A stretch of DNA of 64,000 nt from Platanthera guangdongensis (lineage: Eukaryota; Streptophyta; Magnoliopsida; Asparagales; Orchidaceae): positions 154,087,010 to 154,151,009 of the forward strand of contig CM077167.1 in the NCBI GenBank assembly GCA_039583875.1, in the 5' to 3' direction. The translations under genes were made by a program, and so were the position numbers. The notes beneath the pieces are model-generated. The model searched no databases and was not told the origin of the DNA. It saw only the letters and a program-made list of their open reading frames with translations. Below are positions 3,551 to 50,335 of this stretch, piece after piece. Within the stretch, counting starts at the first letter, position 1; the number at the start of each line of letters is the position of its first letter.

Positions 3551-4133
3551 CTAGGTAGCAAGCATGCCCTAAAGAATCTCATCTGACTGCAGTAAAAAGG
3601 ATTTTGAGATATCTTAAGGGCACACCTTATCTAGGCCTTTGGTACCTTAGGAATGGAGATTTTCTACTGACAGGCTATTCAGATGCAGATTTTGCAGGTT
3701 GCAAGGAAGATAGAAAAAGTACTACAGGCACTTGTCAATTTCTAGGTGGAAGACTAGTGACTTGGAGCAGTAAGAAGCAGACGAGTGTGGCAATCTCCAC
3801 AGCTGAGTCTGAGTATGTGGCAGCAGGAAGTTGTTGTGCACAACTATTGTGGATTCAACACCAGCTAGAAGACTATGGTATTCAATTAAGTAGAACACCT
3901 TTGTTTTATGATTCTACAAGTGCAATTTCTATAGCTAATAATCCGGTTTCACATAGTAGGACTAAGCACATAGAAATTAAATACCATTTTTTAGAGAACA
4001 TATAGATAAAGAGGACATCTCTTTAGAATTTGTTAAAACTGATTATCAAATTGCAGACATGTTCACTAAGCCTCTGGATGAAACTAAATTCAATAAATTT
4101 AAAATTGAATTAGGCATGTTAAACATTGATTAG
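3551..4133 (+). pseudogene. Sirevirus A pol C-terminus (RNase H), truncated
   Basis: Ty1/copia RNase H end of pol. The frame is already open at 3559 (CPKESHLTAVKRILRYLKGT), then YSDADFAGCKEDRKSTTGTC and STAESEYVAAGSCCAQLLWI carry the usual copia RNase H acidic residues. An extra T in the run near 3990 shifts the frame. The C-terminus continues in the next frame with DYQIADMFTKPL and LGMLNID before a stop at 4131-4133. The 5' part is separated by the Tat insertion and lies off the left edge. The order pol, extra ORF, long LTR is Sirevirus-like. Confidence 0.85.
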
Positions 4134-4149
4134 TTTCACAAAATTTGGC

Positions 4150-4640
4150 TAAGTAAAATAGTGTCGACACAAAACGTTGTCTGTGTCGACACATAGAAAT
4201 GGTGTCGACATTCCAGGGAAATGATGTCAACACATCTATATAAGTAGTGTCGACACTTCAGGAAGTTGTGTCGACACATCCAGGATAGCTTTGTCGACAC
4301 TGGGAATAAGTGTCGACACATAAGTTCTGTCGACTAAATAGGTGTCGACACATCCAGAAGTTGTGTCGACACTTTGGTTCAATACAGATTCGTCGAGTGA
4401 AGTATCGACTATTCGTCGAACGCAGATGTACAAGTGTCGACACATCATAATTGGTGTTGACACATATAAGTCAACACTATTGTCGAGACTTAAGTAGTAA
4501 GTGTCGACACTTTTCAACAGTGTCGACACATTAGGAGGATTTTGACGCGCCTTTTCACCTTCATTTTTAGAAAGGTATAAATAGGTCTTCAACATTGTTT
4601 GTCGACACGCTCTCAATAGTTTCGAGACCAAAACTTTATG
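4150..4640 (+). repeat. GTGTCGACAC palindrome cluster ahead of ORF3
   Basis: More than a dozen copies or near copies of the 10-bp palindrome GTGTCGACAC, spaced about 15-40 bp, fill the gap between the pol stop and the post-pol ORF. The same motif fills the U3 of this element's LTR. It ends around a TATA box at 4576. Short ORFs read through it only because the repeat lacks stops in some frames. Confidence 0.85.
4576..4584 (+). promoter_or_regulatory. Internal TATA box ahead of Sirevirus A ORF3
   Basis: TATAAATAG lies 100 bp upstream of the ATG at 4684 and directly after the GTCGAC cluster. The LTR shows the same order (cluster, then TATATAAAG at 8760), so an internal promoter for ORF3 is plausible. 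This is inference from layout only. Confidence 0.45.
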
Positions 4641-4683: not shown

Positions 4684-7398
4684 ATGGCGCCCAAACTTGA
4701 AGAGAACGTCAACGAAGGATATGAGCTAGTACGCAACGCATTTGACCATGCGGAACCCAAAATTAAGGGGGTTGTAACCCTAATTGTAGAGAATGTACTG
4801 GAAGTTCTTGTTTCAGAACCAACCAAGATTTGGAAGGAGGTACTAGAATTCTTTGGTGCAGCTATTCTAGATCAAACAGGACTCAAGATTAAATCCATAG
4901 TCCATGGAGTAAAAGTAAAACTCACCCAGAAGAGGTTAAGAAAAGTTCTTCACCTGCCTAGAACACAAGAGGAAGAAGATGTACCTGCATCAAAGCTAAG
5001 GGAGGCACTGCAATGGTGTGGACTAGATTCAACCATGAAGATTGGCTCGGTATTTAACAGGAAAGGCATGAATATGCAAGGAGAGTTCTTGTCTGAAGTG
5101 GTAGGCAAGGCGATTCTGTGCAAGCTAGGTGGGCATGATAGGATATCAGCTCATATGTTCATCTTAATGACAAGGATCATCTTTAAACTCAACACTGATT
5201 GGTTAGCAGTGATTTATGAAAAGATTAAGGAAAGTCTGAAGAAACCCAATTTGGGTAGAATTATGAGTCTGTACTTGGCTGGAATTATCCCAGAGGTAAT
5301 GGAACAAGCTGTTGGTTCTAAGATAAATCACATGAGGAGGATGGACATCAGGATAATCTCAAGATGGGATAGGGTGTTAACTAAGAACATGCCTACTCCA
5401 GAGAAAGAAGTTCCTCCACAAAAGAAGAAGAAGAAAGCCATAAGGGCCCCTAAATCTTCCAGTAGTTCAGAGGAGCAAGTAGTTTTCAGTTCTAATGAGG
5501 AAGAAGCTGATAATACTGGAAGGTCACCAGTAAGGAATGAAGATGCATAGAGGCAGGGGGAGCAACCATCTGCTATCCCCATCCACCTGGATCCACTCCA
5601 GGGGGAGCCTCAACATGTGGAAGAGCCAACTCACTTAGACAGTGAAATGGCAACTCAAATAATTCTTGAGGTAATACATGAAGTTAATCAATCAATTTTT
5701 CATATTGAGGATGAAGTATTTACTGAGTATTTGATTAATGTTGATTAGCCAACACAACTACATAGTCAAGCACTAGATGATATCATGAAAGATACATCTG
5801 TTACTACTGATATTCCTGAGATAAGAGAATCTACAGTCCCTACTCAACAGGAGTATACCCTAGAAGAGTTGTTCCCTGATTTGGTACAAACTGATTTTGA
5901 GGGGGAGAAAGCAGCTTTTAAGGGGGAGCCAGGTAACTTATAGGAGGACCAAGCTAATCTTGAGGGGGAGCATGTCAGGTCTCAGGGGGAGACTGCAAGA
6001 AATGAGGAAAAGCAAAGCAGAATGGAGAATGAGGAGCAAAGGACTCAGAAGGAGCTACCAAGGACTGAGAAGGAATTGCCTACAAGTCCAAAGGATACAG
6101 TTGAGATAACCAGTACCTCTGCATCTGAAGATGAAGAAGCTTCCAGAGCTAAGAAGAGAAAGCTTATGATCTTCAAGAGACGGAGTCAAAGCTACAAGAA
6201 GGCACTATAAATAGTTGCTCCACAGCCTGCCCCAACAGCTGATTACCGCTCATTGTTGGTGGCTTTGCAGATAAAAATAGATGAGCAAAGGAAGGCTCTA
6301 GAAACATATATGGATGAAGGTCATAAGTCACTTCAATTTGATTTGGCTCAAGATATAAAATCAATAAGATTTGAAGTGAATCAGAATAAGAAGGAAATGA
6401 CTGATTGTTTCCACAAGGGTGGAAATGCTGTGGTTTTCCTAGCAAAGCATCAAGAGACAATCAAGACTCAGGTTGATGACATAGCTGTCAAATAAGACTA
6501 TGTACTAGAAAATAAGATTAGGATGAATGATAATCTAACTGAATCCCATAATGTGATTGTTATTGAGATGAAAAATCTTGCTACTGCCCAAACTGATACA
6601 ATGACTAAGGCCAAGGCAGAATTTGATAAGCAACTACAGGAAGGACTAGCTGTTGTCAAAACAGCTATTCAGGACTCTCAAAAGACTATTTCTGGACAAC
6701 TCCTAAAATTAAAGACATTCTATAAAGATGGAGTCAATTTTATGGATGAACAAGTCAGATTTCAGAAGGATGATCTTAGAGATCATGTTGCCAGAGAAGT
6801 CATAAAGGGAGAGAGAGTATTAGTCAAAGCTGGATCTGACCATGCTAAATGGATTTCCAATAGCATCAGAGCCACACTTGGATATCCACCCCTTTGTGAT
6901 GATGACAATGTGGCTGAATCTGGAGTGCATCCTGCAGATTTTGGAGGAGAGCAAGCTGAAGTTGCTCAAGTTATCTACCCTCCAGCAGATTTTGAGATGA
7001 TACATCATGAAGTACAATCCATGTACAGCCCTCTTGAAGGTGCTCAAAATGTGATCATCGAGAAAGTAGACAAGCCTGTGTCAGAGGCATTTTTGAAAGA
7101 GCAAGAAGTTCTATTATCTAAGAAGTGATTCAGAGAACAGACAGAGTTAAGGCCTGATTTTGAACAGTGGAGCCCAACTTCAAGAAATATTATATTGACT
7201 GCTTGGAAAACAGTAAAGGACAATACTGTAGACAGGGACAAATGGTACTCTGAGCAAGAGTGGAGAAAGCATGAAGCCAGGCAATAGGTTATTGTACAGT
7301 ATAGAAGGAAGGCTAAACTTGGGAAGCTACCTCCTAATGCACAGGAGCCTAAAAATTATTCACAAAGCCTTATCATTATTTTGAAAGACAAAAGATAA
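4684..7398 (+). pseudogene. Sirevirus A post-pol ORF (ORF3, env-like position), broken by stops
   Basis: Starts MAPKLEENVNEGYELVRNAF and stays in one frame for about 900 codons, interrupted by TAG at 5548, 5746 and 5941, TAA at 6208 and 6493, TGA at 7126 and TAG at 7285. The first 250 residues form a compact domain (FFGAAILDQTGLKIKSIVHG; PNLGRIMSLYLAGIIPEVME) resembling what databases call putative plant transposon protein. A basic KKKKKAIR patch and Ser/Glu-rich tract follow. A low-complexity part has repeated (E/Q/K)GE(P/H/K), then long charged helices that look like coiled coil. I see no signal peptide or transmembrane segment, so calling it an envelope protein is not supported. Sirevirus B has a homologous ORF at 13661-15536. 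Function unknown. Confidence 0.7.
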
Positions 7399-7933
7399 GG
7401 GTTGAAGAACTTAAGAAGAAAGATCTAAAGGGCAAGAAGCCTGCAGATGATACAGATGCTCCAGTTTAAGCCAAGATTCAATCAGGCAAGGGCATTGTCA
7501 TCAAGGAGCCATAGCAGCCTTAGTTTAGATTTTCTTAAGTTTACAACTTTGTAATCATTTATGTTAAATACCATGTAAACTTTTGATTGAAGAAACTTTT
7601 GGTAGTTGAAATAAATCTTTTATGAATGCTCATTGTGTTAGCATTATAATTTTGTGATGAAATATTTTATATGTTTTGTTTCAGTAGTTATCCTATCATA
7701 TATTGCTGTTAAATATCATAATATGTATTTGTTATGAATGATGTATATCATTGACTAAGGGTTATGACTTCTCCAAATAGGGAGAGATTGTTGGGTATAT
7801 TGTAAAATGTGTACCAGATTTGAAGAAGCCTCACCCTACTCAATGATATGCATCAAGGTGTATTTGATGTGTTTTTGATTTTATATGTGCAGGTTATGTA
7901 AATGAAGGAATGCATGAAAAATTCTAAGTCCAT

Positions 7934-8625
7934 GTGTCGACACCTAGAGAAGCTATGTCAACACTTATGAAGGTCAGTGTCGACACTGGAGAAAAGCTGT
8001 GTCGACACTTGGAATTAATTGTGTCGACACTTGGAAAGACTGTGTCGACACCAGAATCAACTATGTCGACACCAGAAGGAATGTGTCGACATACAGTGAA
8101 GCTCAGTCGCCACACAGAGAAGCATTGTCGACATCAACTGTGTCGACACCCAGAGAAAGTGTCGACACACAAAGAAGTATAGTCGACATCAAATGTGTCG
8201 ACACATAGAGGCAGTGTCGACACACAGAAGTATTTATCAACATCAGTTGTGTCGACACACAGGACTTGTGTCGACACACATCAAAGCTTCAACAAAGTTA
8301 AAGAGAAGAAGTATTTGTGTCGACACACTGAGGTAGTGTCGAAACCTAGAAGATCTTGTCGATAATAAATGTGTCGACACTCAGGACTTGTGTCGACACA
8401 TGACAAGAATTTCAACAAAGTAAACTTGTATGAAGAACAGAAGTGACTGTGTTGACACCACAAAGGCATGTGTCGACACATTTAAACAGAAGGCCGTGTC
8501 GAGAAGTATTAACAATAACAAAGGAGTTGTGTCGACACCACCAAGACTTGTTTCAACACTTAGTCCACTTGTGTCGACACTTGGTCTACTTGTGTCGACA
8601 CATGTAGAAGATCAGTCTCGACACT
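7934..8625 (+). repeat. GTGTCGACAC cluster in the U3 of LTR A
   Basis: Roughly two dozen copies of GTGTCGACAC or one-step variants at irregular spacing of about 20-35 bp, with unrelated spacers. It begins about 145 bp into the LTR and ends about 135 bp before the TATA box, the position expected for an enhancer-like U3 array. Confidence 0.85.
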
Positions 8626-8768: not shown

Positions 8769-9140
8769 GCTTTCTCCTTCAATAGAAAGTGATGATCAAT
8801 CATTGAATAATAAAGATTCTGAGCAATATAGAGAGAAGTAGTAATACAGAAGACCTTGAAGAAGTTGGAGAGAGAGAGCTCCATCTAAGAAGAGCAGTTG
8901 CTGAACCGGGCTGCAAAGAAAGATTCAGATTGTGATCTGAATCTCAAGTTAGAAGCTGATTGAAGATCATCTTCTCAGGAGATTCAACCCTACTGAGTTC
9001 AGATTTAAGAAGATTTGAAGAAAGCTAAAGGAGGTTGATCTCTGCCATCAAGTTCTTCCAAGAACTGTTCAAGAAGACATCCATCTCTTCTCTCTCTATC
9101 TGGGTGGTGGTTAATTACTTTGTTTTATCAAATTTCTGTA

Positions 9141-9396
9141 AGATCTATTATAGATCTGAGCTGTAAGCCTACGCTATAAAGGCTGAGTGTAAGAGATTTA
9201 CATCTCTGAGTGTAGGTCTTGTTGAAGACTGAGTGGTAGGTATTTGTGCCTGAGTTGTAGGAGACTGTGTTCTCTGAGTGTAGGCCTTGGTGAAGGCTGA
9301 GGTAGGGCTGTTTGCCTGAGTTGTAGGAGTGGGGACACTCTGAGTTGTAGGAACCTTGTTGGGTTCTGAGCTGCTGTAAGATCAGAGGATCTGAGG
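9141..9396 (+). repeat. Array of about 11 mini-hairpins in LTR A
   Basis: Units of about 20-27 nt joined by CTGAG(n)TGTAGG-like linkers. Each unit pairs with itself: AGATCT/AGATCT, AGCCT/AGGCT, AGAGAT/ATCTCT, GTCTT/AAGAC, GCCTT/AAGGC, GAGTG/CACTC, GAACC/GGTTC and AGATC/GATCT, plus three weaker ones. Stems differ between units while complementarity is kept. The array lies downstream of the TATA box and upstream of the LTR end, so it would be in the RNA leader. Pairing was judged by eye. Confidence 0.75.
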
Positions 9397-10239
9397 TGAA
9401 GTGCAGAAGTTAGGCCGAATCTAGTACACTGCTAGATAGGCGAAGGGGGAAAGTGGATGTACCCAGACCTTGGGGAACCACTATAAAAATCTGTGTGCAA
9501 TCTGTATTGTGATATTTCGGTGAATGTTTCTGTGTTAGCTGTAGAGTTTGCAATTGCTGCTTAAATTAAAGAACAGATTTTCTGCCTTAAAAGTAAAAGA
9601 AAAAGTACACTTATTCACCACCCCTCTAGGTGGTTAGACACTAATTCTTTCACTGTACAAGTACCAGGTCTGACTTACCCTTGGACAGCTCTTCACCTGT
9701 ACCTGTAATGAAAAACAAAGCTCAATTGTTCTTGACCCAGGTTACCTTGGGTCCTTAATTTAGTTGAAAGGAAAAGCTGGAAATAACTGATAAGGTGGGT
9801 TGAGATTTATAACCTAAGGGGTGATATCTCCTAGGTGGGATAACCCAATCAGCTACTGGATTGAATGGTTTATTAGTTGGCTTAGAGTTTCTGTAAAATA
9901 AGTAATTTAAGTTTGGTCCTTCTGGGTTCGACGATTTTCTGTAAGTTCGTCGACCAGAGTTCGACGAATAGGGCTGAGATCGTTGATCTCTGCTCAGAGA
10001 ATGACAGTAGTCATTTTCTGCGCCCCAAGTTCATCGACCTCTGCTCGATGAACCATACAAAGTTCGTCGATCGCAGTTACACAAATTGTTATTACTAAAG
10101 TTTGCGTTCAGCGTTCGTCGATCTGGGTTCGACTAACTGGCCACATTTCATCGATCTGAGTTCGACGAATGCTGCTGAACCTTGTTTTTATTAACTGTTT
10201 TCTGATTTCTATTTCTCTTGTCTATGGGTTTTGGGTTGT

Positions 10240-11961: not shown

Positions 11962-11980
11962 TGGCTCTGATACCAATTGA
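11962..11980 (-). other. Primer binding site of Sirevirus C
   Basis: Minus strand reads TTGGTATCAGAGCC directly after the LTR end (CACTTTCA), complementary to initiator Met-tRNA as in most plant copia elements. It fixes the minus orientation of C and the LTR boundary. Confidence 0.85.
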
Positions 11981-13660
11981 AAGTGCAAGGTGGATCTGAA
12001 ATACTCTAGAGGGGGGGGGGGGTGAATAGAGTATTGTGCTCTCTTTTTTTTAAAAAAATTTTTTTTACAACTTTTATTGTATTCCTAAGTGAACAGGTCA
12101 GTAAAGAAAACAATAAGCACAGCAACCTAACTAATCACATAGCACAGCCAAAACAAAACGAAGGGCAACCAAATGACACAAGAAGTTTATAGTGGTTCCC
12201 CAACCTGGGTACATCCGCTCTTCTACCACCCTGGTAGGAATCCACTCAGGTTTTTGATTAGGTGCCTGACACCAATGAGCTTTTGTTCAGGTTCTCAAAA
12301 ACCAAAACCTCAAGTCTTTTGGTAGGAGACTTGTAACCAGGAATAATTTTGAAGGGAATTAGAATCCTGTACATGAGTTGGAAGAGAGGTGATGGTGTCT
12401 TCTCTTTCTCAATAAAAACTGAGAAGACTTGTGGATTGATGTTAGCAGATTTGCTCCCCCTGAGATCAGGAAAACTGGAGCACTGCTTCACAGTGACAGG
12501 TCTTGAAAGCTTGAGTGCCTGGACCAGAGATTGCTTCAGGAACTTCTTTGATAGATAGAGTTTTGTTGTACTTTTGAAGTTATCCTGTAGAATTGAAGAT
12601 GTTCTCTGGCCTGGGCTGATTGCAGAAAAGAACTATTGATTATTGTAAGATTGTTGTTCTGTGCAATCTGTCTGTGTGTCTGAATTGCTGATTGTATCTC
12701 TTACTGATTAATCCTTTTCTTTTTGTATATCTTTCTGACTGAGGAACATTCGAAATTTGAATGTTGAGCAGTAATTGCAGTCGGCCTTGGAAAGAAGTGG
12801 CAATCAATGATTTACCTAACTGTCACATGGAAAAACGACATGTAATAGTCCATAGTCAATGCGCGTTCTAATGATAACATTCCGAGAAGATCTGGCATTA
12901 ATAACTCCGGAATCATCTCCAAGAAACGGGACGGGAAAACTGAAGAAGACCTAGTCTGGAATCGTCGAACGAAGAACAGGAATCATCGAGCTGAGTTCAC
13001 AGTTCGTCGAGCTGAGCTTGAGTTCGTAGAGCTGAGCTTGATGAGTTCGTCGAGCTGAGCTTGATGAGTTCGTCGACCAGACAATTTCATTTGTCTAACA
13101 GACAGTCTTCATTCATCGAGCTAAGATCCAAATACGTCGAGCTGAGAATGATTTTGGACTTAGAATCTGAAAAGTCTCTGACTGAGAAGGAATCAAATCG
13201 TAGACCACAAATCGTTGAGCAGAGTACTGAATTCGTCGACCTGAGAAGCTGTGAACTTGAGGTCCAAGTTCGTCGAGCTCAGATTCTAGTTCGTCGACCA
13301 AAGCCTGAAGTTGGACTTAGAAAAATTCTAAAGTTATCCTGACTTTATCTTGTTGAGGAAACTCAGTCTTCATCGATCAGAGAACAAGGATCGTCGAGCT
13401 CAGCACCAAGAAATGTCTCACGATCGTCGAGCACGGAACACCTTTCGTCGAGCTGAGTTCGATGAACGTCGAACTCACTTTACTCAGTCTTGAGATCTTC
13501 TAAGTATGGAGTTTCTGATGGTCTTGGTTATAGCTAGTCCATCTGAAGTTGACTCTAAGGACTTGGCCTATACTCTAGGACACAAACTTGACCCTGGCTA
13601 TACATGATGGGCCACATCCTAAGCTAGTGAACCTAGCCCAAATCAACTAGGGATCCAACA
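11981..13660 (-). repeat. 5' LTR of Sirevirus C
   Basis: On the minus strand it runs from TGTTGGATCCCTAG (13660) to CACTTTCA (11981), about 1.68 kb. A plus-strand relative at 19756-21339 confirms both ends. U3 carries a TTCGTCGAGCTGAG cluster (about 13470 down to 12960). A poly-G/C tract of about 12 lies near 12010 just inside the end, and the conserved stem AGTGG...CCACT is at about 12190-12222. To its right the sequence is immediately ORF3 of Sirevirus B, the insertion target (flank CATAT). Confidence 0.88.
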
Positions 13661-15536: not shown

Positions 15537-16124
15537 AATAACAAAGCTGAAAACTTGAAGAAGACTGTTGTAACCAAGGATGCTGGTGCAAGTTCACCAA
15601 AGAATAGCTGATAGAAGACTGCAAGACTTAAGCTTATTTAAAAATTATCTAATCTATGTTTGGTAATGAATATCAACAGTGTAAAATTTTCAAATCTCTA
15701 TCAAGGAAATGACTATGTTTTGGCCCTGACTACATTGATGTGACAAATATGCATGAAATTTACACTTACATGTAAGTGTTTGATAAATATGTTGTTCTTT
15801 CATAGAAATCATGTAATCACAAGTTTACTAATGTTGTTTGGCTAAGTTAATGTTTAGGTAGATCTTAATCAAATTGTGTACCTTGTAAAAAATTAATAAA
15901 GCTTTTATTGATTAATCGTACTATCACATTATCAATGATTGATAATTCACCTGTACCATTGATCTTTCAATCATAGTAGTAAGGCATCTCATCCAGGGGG
16001 AGTTATCCTGTACTAGGATGGCTAGTTGTCATGATAATGTTATCATTAGACCAACCATGATATTTCTTGTGTTGATGCAACTTAGCATGGATGGGTGTTC
16101 TGCCTTCTTCAAATATGGGGAGAT
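15537..16124 (+). other. Sirevirus B 3' untranslated region with polypurine tracts
   Basis: AT-rich, no ORF I would support. CAGGGGGAG at about 15995 and ATATGGGGAGAT right before the LTR (16114-16124) are purine tracts; the latter is the likely plus-strand primer. Confidence 0.65.
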
Positions 16125-16279
16125 TGTTGGGAACTGTGCCCTACAATGTTCCTCAGGATTTGAAGAGGCATCACCAATCATGCTAAGGAGTATAATGTAT
16201 TTGATGTGTGCTTTAGTTCATGCATGCAGGTAGTCCATGATTGGACAGGTGAAGAAAAACGAGTTTGGTGGTAAACTCA

Positions 16280-17010
16280 AAATTCGTCGAGCTCCGCTCG
16301 AAGTTCATCGAGCTCAGCTTGCTGGTCGTCGAGCTCTATTCAACATTCCTTGGGATAAGGATTCAAAGTTCGTCGAGCTCAGTTTGTAGTTCGCCGAGTT
16401 CAGCTTACAGATCGTCGAGCTCAGCTTAACACTTGTCGCGCTCAAGCCAGAAAAATTGAATAAGGCAAAAAGCGCTGAGACCGCTGAGAAGATCAGACTT
16501 CGTCGAGCTCAGCCCACAGATCATCGAACGCAGCTAAAGCCAGAAAAACTGACTAAGGAAAAAAGCGCTGAGACAACTGAGAAAGCTGAGAAGAATACGT
16601 TGAGACCATTGAGACAGTTGAGACAACTGAGAAGAATATGTCAGCTTAACCGCTAAGACAAAACTAACTGGATTTCTCTAAGTACAGAAGCGTTGAGTAA
16701 AGTAGGTTCACTCAATGCTTCTAATGAAGAAGGAAGCATTGAGATAGTTAAGAGGAAAACCGCTGAGACAAAAGATAGTCTCAGTTGTGAAGCAAAACTA
16801 TTAAGACCGTTTTGAAGATACCGCTGAGACAGAAACTTGTCTCAGCTGATAAGAAGAAAGCGTTGAGACAAAGGCCTGTCACAGCTGTTAAGAACAAACC
16901 GCTGAGACCGCTGAGACAGAACCGCTGAGATAAATCCAGAGAAAATTCACAAGTCCAGAAGCGCCGAGAGCCAAGACAGATGGCATTGAGTGACTTAACA
17001 TCACTCAACG
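16280..17010 (+). repeat. U3 repeat clusters of LTR B (TCGTCGAGCTCAG, then CGCTGAGAC)
   Basis: The first part repeats (A/T)TCGTCGAGCTCAG with loose spacing. From about 16470 a second motif, (C)CGCTGAGA(C), takes over, often doubled and interleaved with GAAAA spacers. Both lie upstream of the 17208 TATA box. Confidence 0.8.
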
Positions 17011-17207
17011 CTTCATGGATTTCTGGAATATTTTCTAAGTCCAGATGGCGATGACCATTGCTGACGTCATCAAAGTCAACTTACATATAGCCATTGCGGG
17101 AAAGCTGTAGTGGTGCCGAAATCTGCTTTGTCATTTTATGAAGAAGGTGGGGCTCACCAATCCTTGGCTGGGCCCACATACATTTGTGCCGTTGATTCAA
17201 ATCAAAG

Positions 17208-17218
17208 CATATAAAAAG
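17208..17218 (+). promoter_or_regulatory. LTR B TATA box
   Basis: CATATAAAAAGG follows the U3 repeat clusters and precedes the hairpin array by about 390 bp, matching the layout of LTR A. Confidence 0.5.
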
Positions 17219-17607
17219 GAAAAATAAAAAAGGATTAGGGCAACGAAAAAAATGGAGAACAAACAAAGAAAATACACAAAGAAAATTAGAGGCAGCTGGA
17301 CATCTTCTTCTCCATCATGCTTGAAAGCTCAAGTTTAGCAGAGATAGCCTGAAAGGCAAAGGAAGATAGCTGAAGCTCTTCAAGCTCAGCAAGATAGTTC
17401 TCTCTAGAACATAGAAGCTGATTCATCCATTCAGCAAGCTGGTAACTGCTCATCTGTGCAGTAAAAAAGTATTAGTTGTAGAAGAGGACTAATTCCTTCT
17501 ATAATAAGTGTGCTGGACTGATATCTGCTCAGTCTAGCAAGGTAGACTCAGAGACTTATCTCTGAGTCAATTGTTTTATTTCTCTTAAACATTCTAATTT
17601 ACTTCCT

Positions 17608-18145
17608 GTAGGATTCAGTATACCTGAATCTGATTGTAGGGCACTTTGTGGCTGAGGAAGGTGACTAATTAGTCACTAAGGTAGGTGCCCTGTTGGGGTA
17701 CTGAGGTAGGATCCAAGTGTGGATCTGAGCTATAGGGCTTAATTGCCTGAGGTAGGATCCAAGTGTGTATCTGAGGTAGGGCTGTCCTCCCAGCCTGAGT
17801 GTAGGGCCTTATGCTTAAGATAGGTGATTGGAGAGTCACTGAGCTGTAGGTGACATGTGTGTCACTGAGTTGTAGGCCTTGGAGGAGGCTGAGCTGTAGG
17901 TACCTGGATGGGTACTGAGTTGTAGGAGTGCTACAGTACTCTAACAGTAGGGCTATGTGCTTGAAGCTGTAGGGATGAAGAGCCTGAGTTGTAGGCCTTA
18001 GAAATAAGGCTGAAGTAGGTGATCAGTGGCTCACTGAGCTGTAGGAGATCTGTAGGGCTCTGAGGTAGGAACCATTGTGGATTTGAGTTTATATTATGTG
18101 AAGAATCTGTGTAATAGGCTGAGGGCCTGAGGTGTAAGCTCTGAG
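17608..18145 (+). repeat. Array of about 20 mini-hairpins in LTR B
   Basis: Linker (C/A)TGAG(n)TGTAGG alternates with self-complementary inserts: GATTCAG/CTGAATC, GTGACTAA/TTAGTCAC, GATCC/GGATC, GGCTG/CAGCC, GTGAC/GTCAC, GCCT/AGGC, GTACC/GGTAC, GAGT/ACTC, GCCTTA/TAAGGC and others. A few units have one mismatch or only three pairs. It is the longest of the Sirevirus hairpin arrays here. Confidence 0.75.
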
Positions 18146-18410
18146 GAGTATATTGGTGGAGTTTGTACCTAGTCCAACAAATTAGTTGGATAGGTGGGAG
18201 GGAAAGTGGATGTACCCAATTTGGGAACCACTATAAATCATTGTGTGTTTGTTGTTTGCTTGTTTTCTGATTTATTGCATGTGCTAAGGACAAGCTCTGG
18301 ATAGATCATCTTAAAAATCAGCAAAAGAACTAAGAAAACCTCAAACACCTATTCCCCCCCCCCCCCCCCCCCGCTACGTGATTAGATAACCTTTAGTTAA
18401 GCAACTTTCA

Positions 18411-18603
18411 GTTATATACTCTACTCTCGCCCTGAGTCAAGCGGTTGAACTAATTATCCATGGCAATCCACTGCGTCGAAGGCTGATGTTTTGCTAAGAA
18501 CAATCTCAAAAACTCATCCATCGAGATCTCAGATAGTCATCTAGCTGCAAAGTGGTGTAACTCCAACTCATCCCACCAAAGTCGAGCCTCTCTGATACCA
18601 AAT
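18411..18603 (-). mobile_element. Leader and primer site of chromovirus D'
   Basis: Minus-strand sequence just after the D' 5' LTR. ATTTGGTATCAGAGAGG (18603-18588) is a Met-tRNA primer site. The rest, up to the Sirevirus B boundary at 18410, is 5' leader with no ORF of its own. The remainder of D' is displaced beyond the left edge by the nested Sireviruses. Confidence 0.7.
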
Positions 18604-19755: not shown

Positions 19756-21339
19756 TGTTGGATCCCTAGTTTGATTTAGGCTAGGTTCACTATCTAGGAT
19801 AAATGACTCAACATGTATAGCTAGGGTCATGTATGTGTTCTAGAGTTTAGGTTAAGTCCTTAGAAACAACCACACATGGACCAGCCAATAGAAGATTGCA
19901 GAAGACTTAGACTTAGAAGAAGATCAAGTTAAGGAAAGTGAGTTCGACGTTCGTTGAACTCAGCTCGACGAAAGTCATGCTCCGCTCGACGAACTCAGAG
20001 AAAATTCTCTGAGTTGAGCTCGATGATATTCGAGCTCAGTTCGACGAATTCTGGGTGATCAACTTCAACACAATAAGTCCAGAATCCTTTCTCTGAACTC
20101 AGGTCAACAAAGTTTCATTATCCGCTCGACGAACTTAGAGCACAGAAATGGGAAGTTCTTCACAGAAAGCAGTTAGCTGATCTCAGGTCGACGAACTTAG
20201 TTCTCAGGTCGACGAACAAGGATTCCAAGGTCGACAAACAAGATTTCTAAGGTCGAAGAACTCTGTACTCAGTTCGACGAAATCTGTTCTCTGCTCGACG
20301 ATTGCTGTGCAGTTCCAGACTTGAAATTTTCCCTTCTTCTTGTCCTTATTCTATTGCAGTAATTCCTGAATAATCAATGCTTATATTCTCTGGAAATATC
20401 CGTTAGTGGTTGCATTGATTATGGTATTCATCAGGATTATTACATGCCGTTTTTTAATAGGACAGGTGGGGAAATCCATTAATGCAATATTCTCTCCAGC
20501 CGGATTTTCATTCTCCAGGCAGTCAGCATTCAATGCAGACAATTCAAATTCAAATGAGAAATTAGACAGAGATATAGAAAAAAGATTCTTCTCTTTTAGT
20601 CGAAAATACACAACAGACAACAAGGATAGCAGTGCACAAAGAAAGACATGCACCAGAAATTATTCAAGAAAAGGCTCTGTCTGTATTCATCAGGGGTTCT
20701 TCCTCCAGCAAGCTAAAAAGAGACAATCAACTTCTATCTGTCTACAGCTTTCTGGAGATCTTTTCAAGAAGACCTACTCACCCTGCAAAACTTCCACTCT
20801 TTCTGAACAAATCTTCATCTCAGGGGGAGCTTTGACAACATCAAGATCCACTAGTCTTCTCTGTTGTTTTGAGACAGAGAAGACACCATAACTCTCTCAC
20901 CCCCTCTCTATACAAAGGGTTCTTTAACTCCCTTCAAAAGTTATTCCTTGGTTGCAAGTCTCCTGATCAAAAGACTTGAGTTAGTTTTTGAGCACCTGAT
21001 CAAAAGCTCATTGGTGGCAGTCACCTGATCAAAACCCTGTAGTGGAATCCTACCAGGGTGGTAGAAGAGTGGATGTACCCAGGTTGGGAAACCATTATAA
21101 AAATTCTTGTGTTGTCTGGTTGCCCTTTTCTTTTTATTCTTGATGTGCCTGTGATAGATTAGGTTATATGTGCTGTGTTAGAATAACTTAACTTAGGATA
21201 ACATTTAGCTTACTGGTAATCTGATATCTCTCAAGTCATTTCTCTGATATCACTTCTTAAACAGTCAAAAGATTTTTTATTACTCTATTCACCCCCCCCC
21301 CCCCCCTCTAGAGTAAATTAGGTCTAACCCTCACTTTCT
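19756..21339 (+). repeat. Solo Sirevirus C-type LTR
   Basis: 1584 bp from TGTTGGATCCCTAG to CCTCACTTTCT, with no internal region or partner LTR. It is related to 11981-13660 in opposite orientation. Flanks CCCGG (19751-19755) and CCCGA (21340-21344) match at four of five positions, a likely target duplication. U3 has a CTCGACGAA(C/T)TCAG cluster at about 19940-20305. Two hairpins sharing the loop CCTGATCAAAA are at 20955-21015. The short ORFs in it have no recognisable product. Confidence 0.85.
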
Positions 21340-30307: not shown

Positions 30308-30964
30308 TGTAACGCCCCTGAATTTTCTATAATTAAATTAATCGCTTAAATTCCATAACAGTGACGAAAGGGTGTTACGTTACTTCAAGAGTTGTGGTGC
30401 GTCGGCCCTTTCTTTCAAAGTATCTGCCTATGTGTGTATAAATAATAATGTAATAATAAATTTTATTTACTATTTAAAATCTTCCTCCGTAAGTAATTCA
30501 ACTCATAAAAATTAGGTTTTTCGAGACTTTTCTTTCTTTTCGCCGAACCAGATAGCGTGGGAGAGGGTAGAGAAGTCGTTCATTTTGAAAGGTTTCCGTC
30601 GGCCGCCGTCAGGGCACGGGCGCAGGAGATCGCCATCAAAGTAGAGATTTGGACTGCTCTCTCCGAGATATTTGTGTGTGCAGTGAGTTCTTTTGTTTTC
30701 GTGGAGTTTTGGTGTTGGAGGAGTAGCCCTAACCTTCGTTTTCTCCCCAAATATTTCAGAATTTACTTGTCGGGGGTTGCTCTTAGCTGATCCGTGGCGT
30801 GGTGTGCTAGAGATTTGAGGCAAGTGACGGTCTATCCCTCTTGTTTGTTTCTATAGTTCTTTTCCTTTTTTTTTTCTTTCTTGTAAAGATCCAAGGGGAA
30901 TGTGTTTTGTTTCCACAATGTTCGAAGTTTTGATTTGAAGATTATGTAAATTCTTTTATATGCC

Positions 30965-31365
30965 AATTCGTCGAGTGATCTCGTGAAGTTAAGCCGAATT
31001 CGTCAAGTGCTCTCATGAGGTCGAGCCAAATTCGTCGAGTGTCTAAGTAGAATTCGTCGAGTGTCCAAGTAGAATTTGTCGAGAGGTTAAGTGGAATTCG
31101 TTGAGAAGTCAAATGAATTTGTCGAGTGATCTCGTGAAGTCAAGCCGAATTCATCGAGTGTGCTAGTGAGGTCGAGCCGAATTTGTCGAGTGTCTATGTA
31201 GAATTCGTCGAATGTATAAGTAGAATTTGTCGAGAGGTTAAGTAGAATTCGTCGAGAGGTCAAGTGGAATTCGTCGAGTGATATCGTGAAGTTTAGCCGA
31301 ATTCGTCGAGTGATATCGTGAAGTCTAGTGGAATTCGTCGAGTGCTTAAATAAATTCGTCAAATG
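30965..31365 (+). repeat. TTCGTCGAGTG cluster in the 5' LTR of G
   Basis: About 16-18 copies of (A/G)AATTCGTCGAG(T/A)G at about 20-30 bp spacing, separated by related words such as TCTCGTGAAGT and TAAGTAGAATT. Its counterpart in the 3' LTR is at 40675-41050. Unlike the Sirevirus clusters, it lies about 530 bp downstream of the TATA box. Confidence 0.82.
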
Positions 31366-31716
31366 AAGTTGTTTGTACTTAAAAACTTTTGGATCTTTCT
31401 CCCTTGCGTCTTTGTGACAATCTGATGCTAAATCTTGGGCATTTTTGGTTTAGTATTGTATTTATATTATTATTTAGGACTTTTGGTTGATAGTGGATAA
31501 AGGACCACCACCTTAGTCCCTATTGTGAATCATTACGCCCGGTGAAATTATTATTTTGTCTTTTGGTGGGCAGTGGATAAAGGACCACCACCTTAGTGCA
31601 TATTTCTTTGGATGTGTTGGTCTGATGGTTTGTGTTGGAAAGATAGCCACCGCCCTAGTACCATTTTACATTTGACGTTGATGATTCACTTTTCAAGTTA
31701 ATGAATGCTACTACTA

Positions 31717-31721
<5 letters not shown>

Positions 31722-31779
<58 letters not shown>
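31722..31779. repeat. (TA)n microsatellite
   Basis: Nearly pure TA run of almost 60 bp. The same spot in the 3' LTR reads only ACTATATACTTTGG (about 41407), so the run expanded after insertion. Confidence 0.95.
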
Positions 31780-31781
<2 letters not shown>

Positions 31782-32719
31782 TTTGGACATCAATAAGAGT
31801 CATTTTCGCACTTAGTGCAAAGCTTTCTCCTTATATGTTCGATTTGTGTCAAACTAATCGTTCTCCTTACTCATATGTTACTGATTTCTATGGTTTTGCA
31901 GCATTTCCAGTCGGGTTGGTAACTCACTTATCTTATTAAACCTTTTGATTTATGTTTGAGCCGCCTTTGTGCTCTGTGCTGAGGAATTCTTTTCTTTTAA
32001 ATTCCACAGGTTCGGGTCAGTAGCAGGTAGTGCTGACCGAGCTTGTTTGGTCAGTCTTCTACAGTTGTTTCTTTCCCTCTCCCAGTTGAGTAGTGGTCGG
32101 TGTTTCTATTCTTACTTCGTACTTTTGTTGTTAATGTTATGGGTTCATGTCAATTTGTTGGCGCCCATAGCATAGTTTCTTGTGTATCAAACTGTTATGC
32201 TTATGTCTCCGCTACTACTATATTTTCACTATTGAAGTGTTTCTCTCTTTGGGAATGTATTATGTTAGGTTGCATGTTAGTTATTTTTGCAGCTAAACAA
32301 ATTTACATTTTAGCTTAGATTCATCACATCTCTTTAACTTAATATCAACCTACTTTAATGAATATAAAACTTTTTTCCTTTACTAATACTAAATTTAGAG
32401 ACTGCATATCATTAGCAAGTTCGTTTGGTTTTCACGTTCATGTAGGATAAATGAATGTAGTAAATTAAAAGTTTTCCATTGTGAACTATATTTTCCTATT
32501 TTGTGGACTAGTTGAGCAACTAAACTGAGGGACACAGTTTTGAAGTTTAAACTCAATTCACGTTTTCAATCATAAAGATATACATCTTTTATGAAAATGA
32601 TTAGAAGTTTATTCTTGCCTGAGCGTCTGCATTTGTCCCATGCACGGCGTGGCATCATGACACGTATTTTCTCTTACTCTGATAATGTTTTAAACATTGA
32701 GAAAATGCAGGTTGTGACA

Positions 32720-32948: not shown

Positions 32949-34798
32949 TGAAAGAATTAGTTCCTAAACACCTAGAGGGGGTGAATAGGTGTAATTCCTT
33001 TTTCGTTTTAAAGGCAGAATATCTATTCAGTTAATTACTCAGAAACAGTTAATTCTACAGCTAACACAGCACAGAATTCACAGAATCACACAATCACAGA
33101 TTGCACACAGTTTTTATAGTGGTTCCCCGAGAACTGGGTACATCCACTTTCCCCCTTCGTCTATCTAGCAGTGTGCTAGATTCAGCCTAACTTCTTCTCT
33201 TCACCTCAGATCCGTAGATCTTACAGCTCAGAACCCAAACTAGGCTCCTACAACTCAGAGTGAGTCCACACTCCTACAGCTCGGGCAATCTGCCCTACCT
33301 CAGCCTTCAACAAGGCCTACAACTCAGAGATCGCAATCTCCTACAACTCAGGCTCACAGCCCTACCACTCAGAGATCTAAATCTCCTACAACTTAGCCTT
33401 TATAAACACAGGCTTACAACTCAGATCTTATAAAGATCCTACAGAAAATTTATTTAAGTTTGTAATATACCACCACCCTAGTAGAGAGAGAAAGGATGGA
33501 TGGCTTCTTGATCAGTTCTTGGAAGAATCTGATGGCAGAGAACAACCACTCTTAGCTTTCTTCAAAGCTTCTTGAATCTGAACTCAGTAGGGTTGAACTC
33601 CTTTGAAGTTGATCTTTAATCAGCTTCTTTCTTACAATTCAGGTCTCAATCTGAATCCTTCTTGGCAGACTGGTTCAGGATCTGCACCTGAGGGACTTGT
33701 TGATTTAAGTCCCTTTCTTCACTTCTATAGATGGAGCTCTCTCTCTCCAACTTCTTCTTAGATCTTCTGATGAAAATCTTCTTCTCCTTTTTTTATGTAA
33801 TTGTATGTGTATATTCTTTTCTGTATATCAGTCACACTTCATGAATTTCTTTGTTTCAGTCATCTCTTTCTGTTGATGAAGAATGCTTTTATATAGACTT
33901 CCTCCATGGTAACCAGATGATCCGATTTCTAACAAACTTCTGACAGCTCTGACAGTTGCAGTAGAACGGTTGCTATTGGCAGCTGTTAAGTCATCCAGTC
34001 AATTCTTGAAACTTTGTCTCTGTCAGCAAAGTGTCGACACAACTGAACTCACTCATCATGTGCTGTGTCGACACACTTTATTGGACTCTAAGTATGTCGA
34101 CAAACTATGTAAGTGTCTACACAAGCCTTGATGGTGTCGACACAATTTCCTTGGTGTTGACACTACTTCTCGACACAACATCTGTAGAATGTGTCGACTC
34201 TAATTCTGTGTCGACACAATCACTTTTTCTCTTTAACATTATTGAAACTCTGCTGTATGTCGACACTAGTCCTGTGTGTCGACACTGCTTCTATGTGTCG
34301 ACTCAGTTGATGTCGACAAAGTCTTCTGTGTGTCGACACTGCCTCTGTGTGTCGACACAGTTGATGTCGACTAAGCTTCTCTTTGTGTCGACACTGCCTC
34401 TATATGTCGACACAGTTGATGTCGACTAAGTTTCTCTGTGTGTCGACACTGCCTCTGTATGTCGAAACGGTTGATGTCGACTAAGCTTCTCTGTGTGTCG
34501 ACACTGCCTCTGTATGTCGACATAGTTTCTTCAGGTGTCGACACAGCCTTTCCAAGTGTCGACACAATTAACTCCAAGTATTGACGCAGCTTTTCTGCAG
34601 TGTCGATACACGCCTTCATAAGTGTCGACACAGCTTCTTCTGGTGTCGACATATGGACTTAGAAATTTTTCCTGCATTCTTGTATTTACTTAACCTGCAC
34701 AAATAAACTCAAAATCACATCAAATACACCTTGATGCATATCATTGAGTAAGGTGAGGCTTCTTCAAATCTGGTACACATTTTCCAATGTACCCAACA
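32949..34798 (-). repeat. Solo LTR of Sirevirus A
   Basis: 1850 bp, the reverse-orientation relative of 7789-9652, flanked by the perfect duplication GACAC (32944-32948 and 34799-34803), so recombination removed the rest of the element. It includes the hairpin array (33205-33440), the TATA box near 33890 and the GTGTCGACAC cluster (34030-34660). Tandem ORFs such as MSTPEEAVSTLM arise only from the repeat. Confidence 0.95.
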
Positions 34799-40002: not shown

Positions 40003-42325
40003 TATAAAGCCCCGAGATTTTCAATAATTAATTTAATCACTTAGGTTGGATAACAGTGATGTAAGGGCGTTACGTTAGTTCAAGAGTTGTGGTGCGTCGG
40101 CCCTTTCTTCCAAAGTATCATGCTATGTGTGTATAAATAAGAATGTAATCATAAATTTTATTTAATATTTAAAATCTTCCTCTATATAAGCTATTCAACC
40201 CTTAGAAATTTTGTTTTCGGGACTTTTATTCCTTTTTGCCGAACCAGAGCGTGTGAGAGAGGGCATAGAAGTCGTTCGTTTTGAAAGCTTTCTGCCCCCT
40301 GCTGGAGCTCGGGCGCAGGAGATCGCCATCGGAGTAGAGATTTGGACTGCTCTCGCTGAGGTCTTCATGTGTGCGATGAGTTCTTTTGTTTTCGTGGAGT
40401 TTTGGAGTTGGAGCGAGTAGCCATACCCTTCGTTTTCGCCCCAAATCTTTCAGAGATTAATTGTTGGGGGTTCCTCTCGGCCGATCTGCGGCGTGGTGTG
40501 CTAAAGAGGCCAGAAACCTAGAGATTTGAGGCAAGTGGTGGTCTATCACTCTCGTTTTGTTGCTATTGTTCTTTCCCTTTTTTTTCTTTCTTGTTAAGAT
40601 CTAAGGGAATCCGTTTTGTCTCCACGGTGTTCAAAATTTTGATTTGGAGATTACGTAAAGTCATTCTTATGCCAATTCGCCGAGTGATCTCATGAAGTAA
40701 AGCTGAATTCGTCGAGTGTTCTAGTGAAGTCGAGCCGAATTCATCTAGTGTCTATGTAGAATTTGTCGGGTGTCTAAGTAGAATTCATCGAGAGGTTAAG
40801 TAGAATTCGTAGAGAAGTCAAGTGAATTAGTCGAGTGATCTCATGAAGTCAGATCGAATTCGTCGAGTGTTCTCGTGAGGTAGAGCCGAATTCGTCGAGT
40901 ATCTAAGTAGAATTCGTCGAGAGGTTAAGTAGAATTCGTCGAGAGGTCAAGTAGAATTCATCGAGTGTTCTCGTGAAGTTTTGCCGAATTCATCGAATGA
41001 TCTCATGAAGTCTAGTGGAATTCTTCGAGTGCTTAAGGAAATTCGTCGAGCGAAGTTGTTTGTACTTAGAAACTTCTGGATCTTTCTCCATTGCGTATTT
41101 GTGGCAACCCGATGCTAAGTTTTGGGCATTTTTGGTTTAGTATTGTGCTTATATTAGTATTTTGGACTTTTGTTTGGCAGTGGATAAAGGACCACCACCT
41201 TAGTCCCTGTTGTGAATCATTATGCCTTGTGACTTTATTATTTTGGACTTTTGGTGGGCAGTGGATAAAGGACCACCATCTCAGTGCCTATTTCTTTGGA
41301 TGTGTTGGTCTGATGGTTTGTGTTGGAAAGAAAACCACCGCCTCAGTACCATTTTACGTCTGGCGTTCATGATTCACTCTTCAAGTTAATAAATGCTACT
41401 ACTACAACTATATACTTTGGACATCAATAAGAGTTCTTTTCGCACTCTATGCAAATCTTTCTCCTTGTATTGTCGCTTTGTGCCAAACTAATTGTTCTCT
41501 TTACTCATATGTTATTGATTTATGTGATTTTGCAGCTTTTTCAGTTGGGCTGGTAGCCCACATATCTTATTAAATCTTTTAATTTATTTTTGAGCCGTCT
41601 TTGCGCTCTTTGTGCTAAGACATTCTTTTCTTTTGAATGGCTCAGGTTAGGGTCAGTAGCAGGTAGTGCCGACCGAGCATGTTTGGCCAGTCTTTTGCAG
41701 CTAATTCTTTCCCTCTCCTAGTTCAGACTTTTGTTGTTAATGTTATGGGTTCGTGTCAGTTTGTTGGCGCACATGACATAGTTTCTTGTGTATCAGATTG
41801 TTGTGCTTCTGTCTCCACAACTACTGTATTTTTACTATTGAAGTGTTTCTCTCTCTATGAATGTTTTATGTTAGGTTGCATGTTAGTTATTTTTACAACT
41901 AAACAAATCTGCATTTTACCTTAGATTCATTGTATCTCTTTCAATTTAATATCAACCTACTTTAACAAATATAAAACTCTTTTCTTTTACTTATATTAAA
42001 TTTAGAGACTCCATATCGTTAGCATATTCGTTTGGTTTTTGCCTTCATGTAGGATAAATGAATGTAGTAAATTAAATGTTTTCTATTGCGAACTATATTT
42101 TCCTATTTTGTGAACTAATTGAGCCACTAAACCGAGTGACACGATCTTGAACTGTAAACTAAATTCATGTTTTCAATAAGAAAGATAGACATCTTTTATG
42201 AAAATGATTAGAAGTTTGTTGTTGTCTGAGCGTTTGCAGTTGCACCATGCACGGTGTGGTATCGTGACACGTATTTTCTCTTCCTCTGATAATCTTTGAA
42301 CCTTGAGAAAATGCAGATTGTGACA
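40003..42325 (+). repeat. 3' LTR of chromovirus G
   Basis: 2323 bp, start decayed to TATAAAGCCCC and end ATTGTGACA. It is collinear with 30308-32719, including a TATA box (about 40132), the TTCGTCGAG cluster (40675-41050) and the AGTGGATAAAGGACCACCA repeats. AGGAGAGGTGAC before it is a weak purine tract. Confidence 0.88.
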
Positions 42326-45073: not shown

Positions 45074-46815
45074 GATATTGTATGCACAATAATCCAGATT
45101 TGAAGAAGAGCCCAGTTAAGCTAAGATGAACTGTGACTGTATTTGATGTTGCTTTTTAGTTATGTACTTCCAGGTTTACATTGCTAAGTACACACCAATA
45201 TCAGGCTATAGTGGATCAATAAACACAGAACTATACAATGTAATTCCTCATTGTGTAGGTCAAGGTGTTGACTCACGTGTAATCTCTCTATTAGGGTGTA
45301 CTTCTATCCCAAGTACAAAAGAAAGCTCGAGGAAGGTCAAGAGTTACACCCAGGAAAAATATGAATTTTACCTAAGTAAAATTTGGCGAGTATGGTTAAG
45401 CATACACGTCGAATTTGCCGAGTATCGTCCTTAATACATGCCGAATTCTTCGAGTATACTTACCAATACCCGTCGAATTCGTCGTATATACTTAGGTTAA
45501 ATTCATTGTAGTAGTGAAAAATTCACCAAGTAAAATTCGCCGAGTATCGTTGTGCATACTCGCCGAATTCGTCGAATGAATCTAATGATACTCGTCGAAT
45601 TCGTCGAATATGCTAAGTGATACACGGTGAATTCGTCGAGTCCAGTCGACACTACTTGTCTAGATTTTTCTAAGTTCAATTCGTCGAATATCATGACGTC
45701 AAGAGTGTTGAGTCATCTTGACGCTATTCGATGAATGCTACTCTAAGCATTGGGTGATCAATAAAGGCGTTGAGTGCGTCGAGTCTGTTGACCGATACTC
45801 GACGAATTCGTCGAGTATGCCTGGTGATACTCGACGAATTCGTCGAGTATGACTCCTCGTCATGGCGTTGAGTGACCAGCCAGCCTGGGATGGTTTGGCC
45901 AAGTCATATTCGTCGTATATGAAGATGTACTCGATGACGAGTATCAATATGATACTCGACGAATTTGACTTGTATCATTTTTCCGATATTTTCAAATCCA
46001 GCAACGGGTTCAGTCGGCCATGCACAGTAACTTTTAGGGTTTCGTTTTTGGAATTCCATTATAGCAGTTGCTTCGATTCTCTCTATACATATGTTAGGAT
46101 GGATTTCGAATTCAAGGATCTTACTAATCTTGCTAATTGCTATTTCGAATTCCAAAGTCTCTCAAAATCCACAAACCGACAGCTCGACACCACCATCGCG
46201 CAATTCCTCCCGTTCGGCCGACGGCGACCCGCATGGTTCATCGTCTTCGACTTTCACGACTGGATTGCTTCTTCTCTCAAGATCTGTACTCCTCTAGATC
46301 TAGTCGTTCAAAGACTGAAGGTTCACGATTCAAAGTCTTCAAACCTTCGACTTTCCGAGTTCTTCAAATCTAAAGATCTACTATTTCAAAGAACGTCGGA
46401 GTGAAGACTTGTGATTGTTATTGTTGTATTGTAATAATCATTTACTATTATAGGAGATTGTTTCTCTGAGTTTGTAGATCTGTTTGTGGATCGAGTTTCT
46501 AGATCCGGTTGTGGATCGATTTTGTTGATCCATGTGTGGATCGAGTTGTAGGAGAGTTCGTTCTCCGAGGTGTAGGAGCATTGCTACGAGTTGTAAGATT
46601 GTTGATAATCTGAGGAAAGGTGAATTAGCTGAATCTAACCCTTCGTGGTAGATAGGCGAGGCGGGATAGTGGATGTGCCCAATACGGGAACCACTATAGA
46701 TCTCTGTGTTTGCGTGCTTGCTTATTTTTGAGTAATTTTTTAATCTGCTAAAAGACACAAACATCACCTATTCACCCCCCCTCTAAGTGATTTAGGTAGA
46801 CGCTAGATACTTTCA
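45069..46815 (+). repeat. 5' LTR of Sirevirus F
   Basis: 1747 bp from TGTTGGATATTG to AGATACTTTCA, followed at once by the primer site. U3 has an AATTCGTCGAGTAT / ATACTCGACGAATT cluster (about 45395-45970). Downstream are a seven-unit hairpin array (46450-46615) and the conserved AGTGG...CCACT stem (about 46668-46695). The long ORF 45862-46404 overlaps this noncoding sequence and shows no family features. Confidence 0.88.
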
Positions 46816-46830
46816 ATTGGTATCAGAGGG
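46816..46830 (+). other. Primer binding site of Sirevirus F
   Basis: ATTGGTATCAGAGGG follows the LTR end directly, complementary to Met-tRNA. Confidence 0.85.
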
Positions 46831-49502: not shown

Positions 49503-50335
49503 CGAGAGACCATTAACAAGTGCCATCCAGCCCTGCCAGCTAGGTGAGATCCTGGTAGCGAGATCTGCTCGGGGCCAGGGTAGACACACGCGAGTGACAT
49601 CCAGCCCTGCCGGCTAGGTGAGAGCCTGGCAGCGGGATCTGCTCGGGGTCCGGTTTACACAGACGAGTGACATCCAGCCCTGCGAACTAGGTGAGAGCTT
49701 GGCAGCGGGATCTGCTCAGCATCCGAGTTGACAAACACGAGTGACATACAACCCTGCCAGCTAGGTGAGAGCCTGATAGTAGGATCTGCTTGGGGTCCGG
49801 GTAGACACACTCGAATGACATCCAGCCCTGCCAGCTAGGTGAGAGCCTGACATTAGGATCTACTCGGGGTCCGGGTAGACAAACACAAGTGACATCCAGC
49901 CCTGCCAGCTAGGTGAGAGTCTGACAGCGGGATCTGCTCGGGGTCTGGGTACACACACGCGAGTGACATCCAACCCTGCCAGCTAGGCGAGAACCTGACG
50001 ACGGGATCTGCTCGGGGTCCGGGTTGACACACACGAGTGACATCCAGCCCTGCCAGCTAGGTGAGAGCCTATTAGTGGGATCTGCTCGAGGTCCGGGTTG
50101 ACATACATGAGTGACATCCAGCCCTGCCACATAGGTGAGAGCCATGGCCAGCTAGGTGGATCTGCTCGGGGTCTGGGTAGACACACACGAGTGACATCCA
50201 GCCCTGCCAGCTAGGTGAGAGCCTGACAGCGGGATCTGCTCGGGGTCTGGGTAGACACACATGAGTGACATCCAGCCCTGTCAGTTAGGTGAGAGCCTGG
50301 CAGTAGGATCTGATCGGGGTCTGCTAGGTGAGAAC
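49503..50335. repeat. Tandem array of about 74-bp units downstream of Tat pol
   Basis: About 11 imperfect copies of a unit containing GAGTGACATCCAGCCCTGCC, AGCTAGGTGAGAGCCTG and GGGATCTGCTCGGGGTCCGG. Unit starts at 49591, 49664, 49738, 49812, 49886 and 49960 give spacings of 73-74. The last units carry a small insertion or truncation. The array lies 3' of the integrase end of the minus-strand Tat element, in its 3' untranslated region. Recurrent short peptides in all frames are artefacts. Confidence 0.92.

Follow-up and report, generated by a model that had tools for sequence, protein, structure and literature searches.

How can the units of a tandem array nearly all differ in sequence while each still pairs with itself? 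This question is raised by an LTR in the window, a stretch of 64,000 nucleotides of the Platanthera guangdongensis genome. The original prediction described about 20 mini-hairpins at 17608-18145, with constant linkers and changing stems, and attributed them to selection on structure or to inverted repeats arising by a templated process. The array (array B) was found there, its roughly 20 inserts are short, mutually different and mostly self-complementary, and all six stem examples that had been cited are present. The linker is CTGAG(N)TGTAGG and the inserts differ in 20/20 cases; a simple minisatellite was therefore ruled out.

Units of array B are about 22-26 nt long, and either side of each stem includes two constant letters of the linker (GG...CT), with a basal pair that is mostly G.U. 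Fourteen inserts were cut by the linker pattern and six more were split by hand at diverged linkers. The window copy is partly decayed, as several of its stem sites are mismatched where nearly all sister copies carry the pairing letter. The features of the four array-bearing LTRs of the window are listed in Table 1.

Table 1. Positions in the window of the arrays and of the features around array B
Feature	Position	Strand	Remarks
LTR B, Sirevirus-type Ty1/copia, probably 3' LTR	16125..18373	+	start by PPT/attachment motif; end uncertain past the poly-C run
Upstream tandem array of TCGTCGAGCTCAGCTC-like units	16276..16444	+	TRF; before TATA, as are the repeated motifs known from Sireviruses
TATA box (TATAAAAAGG)	17210..17219	+	about 400 nt upstream of array B
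Mini-hairpin array B	17611..18145	+	20 inserts taken; GG-stem-loop-stem-CT units with GAG(N)TGTA or GAGGTA spacers between them
Larger hairpin TCCAAC...GTTGGA	18172..18191	+	directly past array B; read from sequence
U5 motif GTGGATGTACCC-A(n)-GGGAACCACTATA	18206..18235	+	possible hairpin itself; after each of the four window arrays
Poly-C stretch near LTR end, putative Sirevirus integrase signal	18347..18373	+	sequence, motif scan
Array A, in LTR A (3' LTR)	9135..9400	+	11 inserts taken
Array C, in LTR C	33195..33445	-	10 inserts taken
Array D, in LTR D (5' LTR)	46450..46620	+	7 inserts taken; LTR/PBS junction downstream at 46814-46829

Host elements and abundance of the arrays

The PPT/attachment motif, the LTR/PBS junction and the poly-C stretch are hallmarks of Sireviruses in the excerpted text of Bousios et al. 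(2010; PMC2829016). LTR A starts at AGGGAGAG-AT/TG (7779-7790), which has one mismatch to the PPT AGGGGGAG joined to AT/TG, and three exact extra copies of AGGGGGAG lie upstream at 5900-5995. The start of LTR B, ATGGGGAG-AT/TG at 16115-16126, also has one mismatch, with an extra AGGGGGAG at 14347. No PPT-AT/TG match was found by the motif scan at the starts of LTRs C and D. The 5' LTR/PBS junction, CA/ATTGG-TATCAGAGC, was matched at 15 of 16 letters past LTR D and at all 16 letters in family G (11964-11979, minus strand), while the scan gave no such junction after LTRs A, B or C. Past all four window arrays, GTGGATGTRCCC...GGGAACCACTATA is followed by a poly-C stretch; the poly-C signal near the LTR 3' end is present in B, C and D, and in A with two mismatches. 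Three copies of the U5 motif were found by pattern and the fourth, at 46669, is one letter off the pattern. These hallmarks suggest that the array-bearing LTRs belong to Sirevirus-type Ty1/copia elements.

LTR A holds GTGTCGACAC palindromes upstream of TATA (7932-8610), spaced by roughly 20 nt, and a second set of them lies at 4242-4301. Their core is TCGA, compared to the CGG-CCG core of the Sirevirus motifs. The palindromes at 4242-4301 precede an ORF without a Pfam match that was taken as env-like from its place alone, and visual inspection suggested an RNase H-like frame at 3559-4005.

The array was also predicted to lie downstream of the TATA box, in the RNA leader, and this placement is supported: in 42/50 loci, a TATA box precedes the array by 358-470 nt, and the PBS lies downstream in D. 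For the other eight loci, the scan misplaced the array start in six and did not find the TATA in two. Inspection by eye showed that eight of the nine arrays considered below (A, B, C, D, L098, L101, L104 and L105) are preceded by an A/U-rich stretch with a TGTAGG-like motif at its end. Such a stretch is reminiscent of plant poly(A) regions or splice acceptors. A leader intron was considered and rejected, since the array start is acceptor-like but a shared donor was not seen among the nine leaders. Between the array and the U5 motif sits a larger hairpin, which is TCCAAC/GTTGGA in B and ATCTAG/CTAGAT in A (9418-9438) and C, and thus also changes its letters while remaining paired.

A further 80 kb, fetched from three chromosomes at round coordinates without regard to the motif to avoid a bias toward near copies, contained five more arrays (L098, L100, L101, L104 and L105). 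One group of three linkers (L099) was excluded from the count. In total, there were nine arrays in 144 kb (the 64-kb window plus the 80 kb), or about one per 16 kb, with about 6-22 hairpins per array. Across the 4.25-Gb genome, there were 4689 first-look candidates with the array B query and 4325 with the array A query. The best 40 of the 4689 match at 82-100% identity and the best 40 of the 4325 at 94-100%, window copy included. Since candidates were scored best first, these family samples lean toward close relatives, and some loci are both LTRs of a single element.

The linker array is absent from two LTRs of another family in the window (G and H). Among viral contigs, the linker pattern gave 23 stretches, five of which had at least three linkers on one strand. 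Only one contig (L021) was rich: it had 29 linker-like matches, most of them spaced by multiples of 15 nt, and these repeats are perhaps repetitive coding sequence. A longer linker pattern matched four prokaryotic records, known by title alone, and the LTR pattern matched 0 viral contigs.

Pairing of the inserts and evolution of the stems

If the inserts paired only by chance, shuffled or re-dealt inserts should pair as well as the real ones. They paired worse in all three sets compared. In array B, counting contiguous Watson-Crick pairs from the outer end gave a sum of 58; shuffling each insert gave 6.8 (sd 3.0) and re-dealing the 3' halves among inserts gave 11.1 (sd 5.1) (0/5000 in both cases). 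By the same count, 2/20 inserts lack any outer Watson-Crick pair. The inserts of the four window LTRs, 34 cut by pattern and 14 by hand, are all distinct (48/48), and their stem sum is 149 versus 31.0 (sd 7.2) after re-dealing (0/5000). The signal of array D alone is weaker (21 versus 12.4, with 10/5000 equally high) because its stems resemble one another. A parse by pattern only, with no hand cuts and at least four linkers required, cut eight of the nine arrays (L100 as two blocks) and left out array D, which has fewer than four linkers. It yielded 76 inserts, of which 72 (8-18 nt) were retained and 68 were distinct. Their stem sum is 203 versus 37.4 (sd 8.4) after re-dealing, where the maximum of 2000 was 77.

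The prediction had named covariation within the family, above the phylogenetic background, as one of two deciding observations. Two near-identical rows were dropped from a 40-row alignment of the B family, and changes at 133 stem pairs were mapped on a tree of the remaining 38 with a custom script. For each of 400 nulls, the substitutions of each branch were dropped on random columns. Internal branches were taken as the transposing lineage of this one family of this genome. On these branches, 61 stem changes were counted against 82.4 (sd 5.8) in the null, with 0/400 as low, and pairing was kept in 36/61 (59%) against 47.7% (sd 4.4), a level reached by 2/400. Changes on both sides that kept the pair numbered 2, compared to 0.29 in the null (17/400).

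On terminal branches, pairing was kept in 152/408 changes (37.3%), like the null (38.2%). Stem changes there were somewhat fewer than in the null (408 versus 447.7, sd 15.2; 2/400 as low) and both-sided pair-keeping changes more numerous (11 versus 6.2; 23/400). These deviations are not predicted by plain neutrality after insertion, and they may be due to shared history that 38 copies do not resolve.

Comparisons between inserts gave a second view of compensation. From 91 distinct inserts, 24 entries of which were hand-read, we took the 22 comparisons of equal length in which the stems differ at exactly two sites and the loops at no more than one. These paired differences in the stem face each other in 17 of these 22 comparisons, which are not independent of one another, where 3.3 were expected. 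Ten of the facing cases join two Watson-Crick pairs, two join a Watson-Crick pair and a G.U, and five involve a mismatch; strict compensation is therefore 12/22. Examples with the same loop are GCTG-TCCTCC-CAGC versus GTTG-TCCTCC-CAAC and CCTT-GTTG-AAGG versus TCTT-GTTG-AAGA. In the control, 19 disjoint copy pairs of the B family, 13/79 were facing and 6.3 were expected. Selection on structure thus withstood both refuting conditions of the prediction: shuffled inserts pair less well, and pairing is kept above the tree null on internal branches of the one family with a tree. Between-array compensation likewise exceeds the control.

In the transposing lineage, stem letters vary with pairing kept, and the GAG(N)UGUA spacer recurs little changed in all arrays seen. 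We consider it highly probable that pairing of the stems is under selection. This is the first of the two origins that had been put forward; the second, templated copying, keeps a small share of the probability and is weighed below.

Predicted folding and strand

With linkers fixed and inserts shuffled, as had been suggested for a check, array B folds better than 100/100 shuffles (z -4.2); when pairing was restricted to spans of 30 nt, it folds better than 200/200 (z -4.65). For array A, the corresponding values were z -1.75 globally (5/100 as good) and -4.2 locally (0/200); for array C, they were -2.8 (0/100) and -3.4 (0/200). Against dinucleotide shuffles of the whole sequence, array B gave z -2.66 in sense and -2.77 in antisense. 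The expectation of a string of small stem-loops in the leader was not confirmed for the whole array: most units pair individually, but the unrestricted folds of A, B, C and D swap many hairpins for pairings between units. A simple stem-loop string in the actual RNA is a prediction. As a general prediction, open spacers gave a mixed outcome across the nine arrays: predicted spacer openness exceeds insert-shuffled controls in five, with no difference in A, B, L105 and D. Local hairpin density is no signature by itself because, across the whole window, the arrays share the top ranks with other windows. An Rfam search of 16200-18600 gave two matches, with E 0.38 and 0.54, both under the family gathering score.

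The array quite likely acts as sense-strand RNA, a reading favored because the array follows a TATA box and the basal pair is mostly G.U. This pair is G.U in 57/74 units and would be A.C if read on the other strand; 16 units have A-T or G-C, which is uninformative because the parse already permits A or C at this position. In 9/9 arrays, the sense strand has the stronger local folding. Relative to shuffles, antisense z-scores are more extreme than sense ones (A -4.6, B -6.3 and C -3.9 versus -1.75, -4.2 and -2.8), which may be because the G/U-rich linkers of the sense strand pair with much else. We dropped the comparison of G.U with A.C as a strand test. Distinct inserts of the pattern-only parse hold 13 G.U and 5 A.C, counts without a null for comparison. 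On internal branches, Watson-Crick pairs changed to G.U 17 times (null 29.5) and to A.C eight times (null 18.7), and since both counts lie under the null and their contrast is no larger than in it, the ratio tells little about the strand.

Possible roles of the array

With moderate confidence, we read the array as an RNA element that acts in cis in Sirevirus-type retrotransposons, whose leader carries it between the TATA box and the PBS. Since the spacers are kept by sequence and the stems by pairing, the spacers would be what is read, and the hairpins would space or present them. The hairpins could thereby set out many similar single-stranded docking sites on the sense RNA. These sites may be read by the element's own Gag (its zinc-knuckle part), by the machinery of 3'-end formation or by an RNA-binding protein of the host. 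In the case of Gag, the spacers might serve to select, condense or dimerize the genomic RNA. Unlike stems could stop neighboring units from cross-pairing, although predicted folds still show such pairing.

Retroviral packaging leaders carry stem-loops between the transcription start and gag that are recognized by Gag; these are few, and their loops are conserved. In our view, little has been established about the choice and packaging of RNA by plant retrotransposons. For BARE, packaged and translated RNA are reported as separate pools, and BARE2 is said to retain conserved dimerization and packaging signals, in the sections of PMC3735527 that were available. A role in Gag binding and packaging is placed first among the functions because retroviral leaders are analogous and the two BARE pools are distinct, and by this analogy it is a tentative suggestion. 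The likeness to retroviral and BARE leaders lies in the leader stem-loops, and the difference lies in the design, with about 6-22 tandem units, variable stems and loops, and constant spacers. The array might represent a new class of cis-acting RNA, in which like single-stranded docking spacers alternate with hairpins whose pairing, and perhaps whose mutual difference, is all that selection maintains. On the genomic RNA of these abundant elements, it would form a multivalent platform for Gag or a host RNA-binding protein; we hold this possibility with considerable doubt. The number of units (~6-22) could then act as a dial of the platform.

The literature under open licence yielded no description of such an array. 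The repeated motifs in the excerpted text of PMC2829016 share the element hallmarks and are tandem palindromic boxes in the LTR, but they lie upstream of TATA and repeat a single palindrome, whereas the array here lies downstream, with a constant spacer and a stem that differs in almost all units. That paper contains neither the word hairpin nor the word packaging. Palindrome-rich regions of maize Sirevirus LTRs attract small RNAs (Bousios et al. 2016, as cited in the available parts of PMC10760457 and PMC5311732). These regions are likewise structured LTR sequence, and the same parts describe them for the cis-regulatory region. By comparison with the short stems of the array, the LP-hairpins in the excerpts of PMC10760457 are much longer, pairing over 21 nt or more.

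Other explanations of the array were weighed against the cis-acting RNA element. One arm of each stem could have been copied from the other during reverse transcription, by template switching as in quasi-palindromes, without selection on RNA. Such copying would act chiefly in the transposing lineage, which fits the contrast between internal and terminal branches, and the excess of both-sided pair-keeping changes, on internal branches and more mildly on terminal ones, agrees with it. However, it leaves the constant linkers unexplained, and copying past the stem should give A-U or G-C at the basal position, where G.U persists. This origin, which the original prediction had raised as its alternative, is therefore disfavored, and we think it unlikely. 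A DNA-level role, with the array as a second set of protein-binding palindromes, has a precedent in the palindromic repeated motifs known upstream of TATA in Sireviruses (PMC2829016, in its excerpted text). Those motifs repeat one sequence per element, whereas here nearly all stems differ and what is kept is complementarity and the spacer, making this explanation very improbable.

Two other explanations also concern the RNA. UGUA is an upstream polyadenylation motif, and spacers containing UGUA, or the splice-site-like UGUAG|G and GAG|GUAGG, could tune the choice of poly(A) site between LTRs or the splicing of the leader. The recurrence of UGUA about every 24 nt fits control of the 3' end, and so do the A/U-rich stretch before eight of the nine arrays and the T-rich surroundings of Sire poly(A) sites (PMC3601003, available part). 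The same part gives an R region of about 10 bp for Sire LTRs, in which case the poly(A) site would precede the array. Each leader has 0-3 donor-like matches upstream, with none seen shared, and neither form of the idea explains the paired inserts; this kind of control seems improbable. Another possible explanation is that the string of hairpins controls translation, by slowing scanning or by aiding shunting or internal entry before gag. The position of the array in a long leader ahead of the PBS and the internal region is consistent with this, but upstream ATGs are not uniformly lacking (in the first 260 nt, none in five arrays and 1, 2, 2 and 5 in the other four), and constant spacers would not be required. 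We regard translation control, too, as an unlikely explanation.

As a cis-acting RNA element, the array would be a covarying structure present about once per 16 kb of the sequence covered. Since each of two families has more than 4000 first-look candidates, it would offer many natural variants, both intact and decayed. These variants would allow testing which parts of the array matter. The findings also suggest that Sirevirus leaders, besides their promoters, are under structural constraint.

Several other repeats were noted in the window. LTRs H (20950-21070, plus strand) and G (12230-12340, minus strand) carry leader hairpins of another design, with variable stems and a similar loop, shortly before a like GTGGATGTACCC motif. 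In H the loop is CCTGATCAAA(A) and contains the self-complementary TGATCA, which we take to resemble a retroviral kissing-loop dimerization site; the loops in G vary more. Two tandem arrays, 32-nt and 151-nt, with GAATTCGTCGAG units were found at 30965-31365 and 40674-41050. They fall in the paired stretches 30310-32719 and 40005-42325, and like units occur upstream in LTR D (45380-45860). Finally, a strong 74-nt tandem array with 10.8 copies lies at 49519-50321, shortly past a stretch reading N/X.
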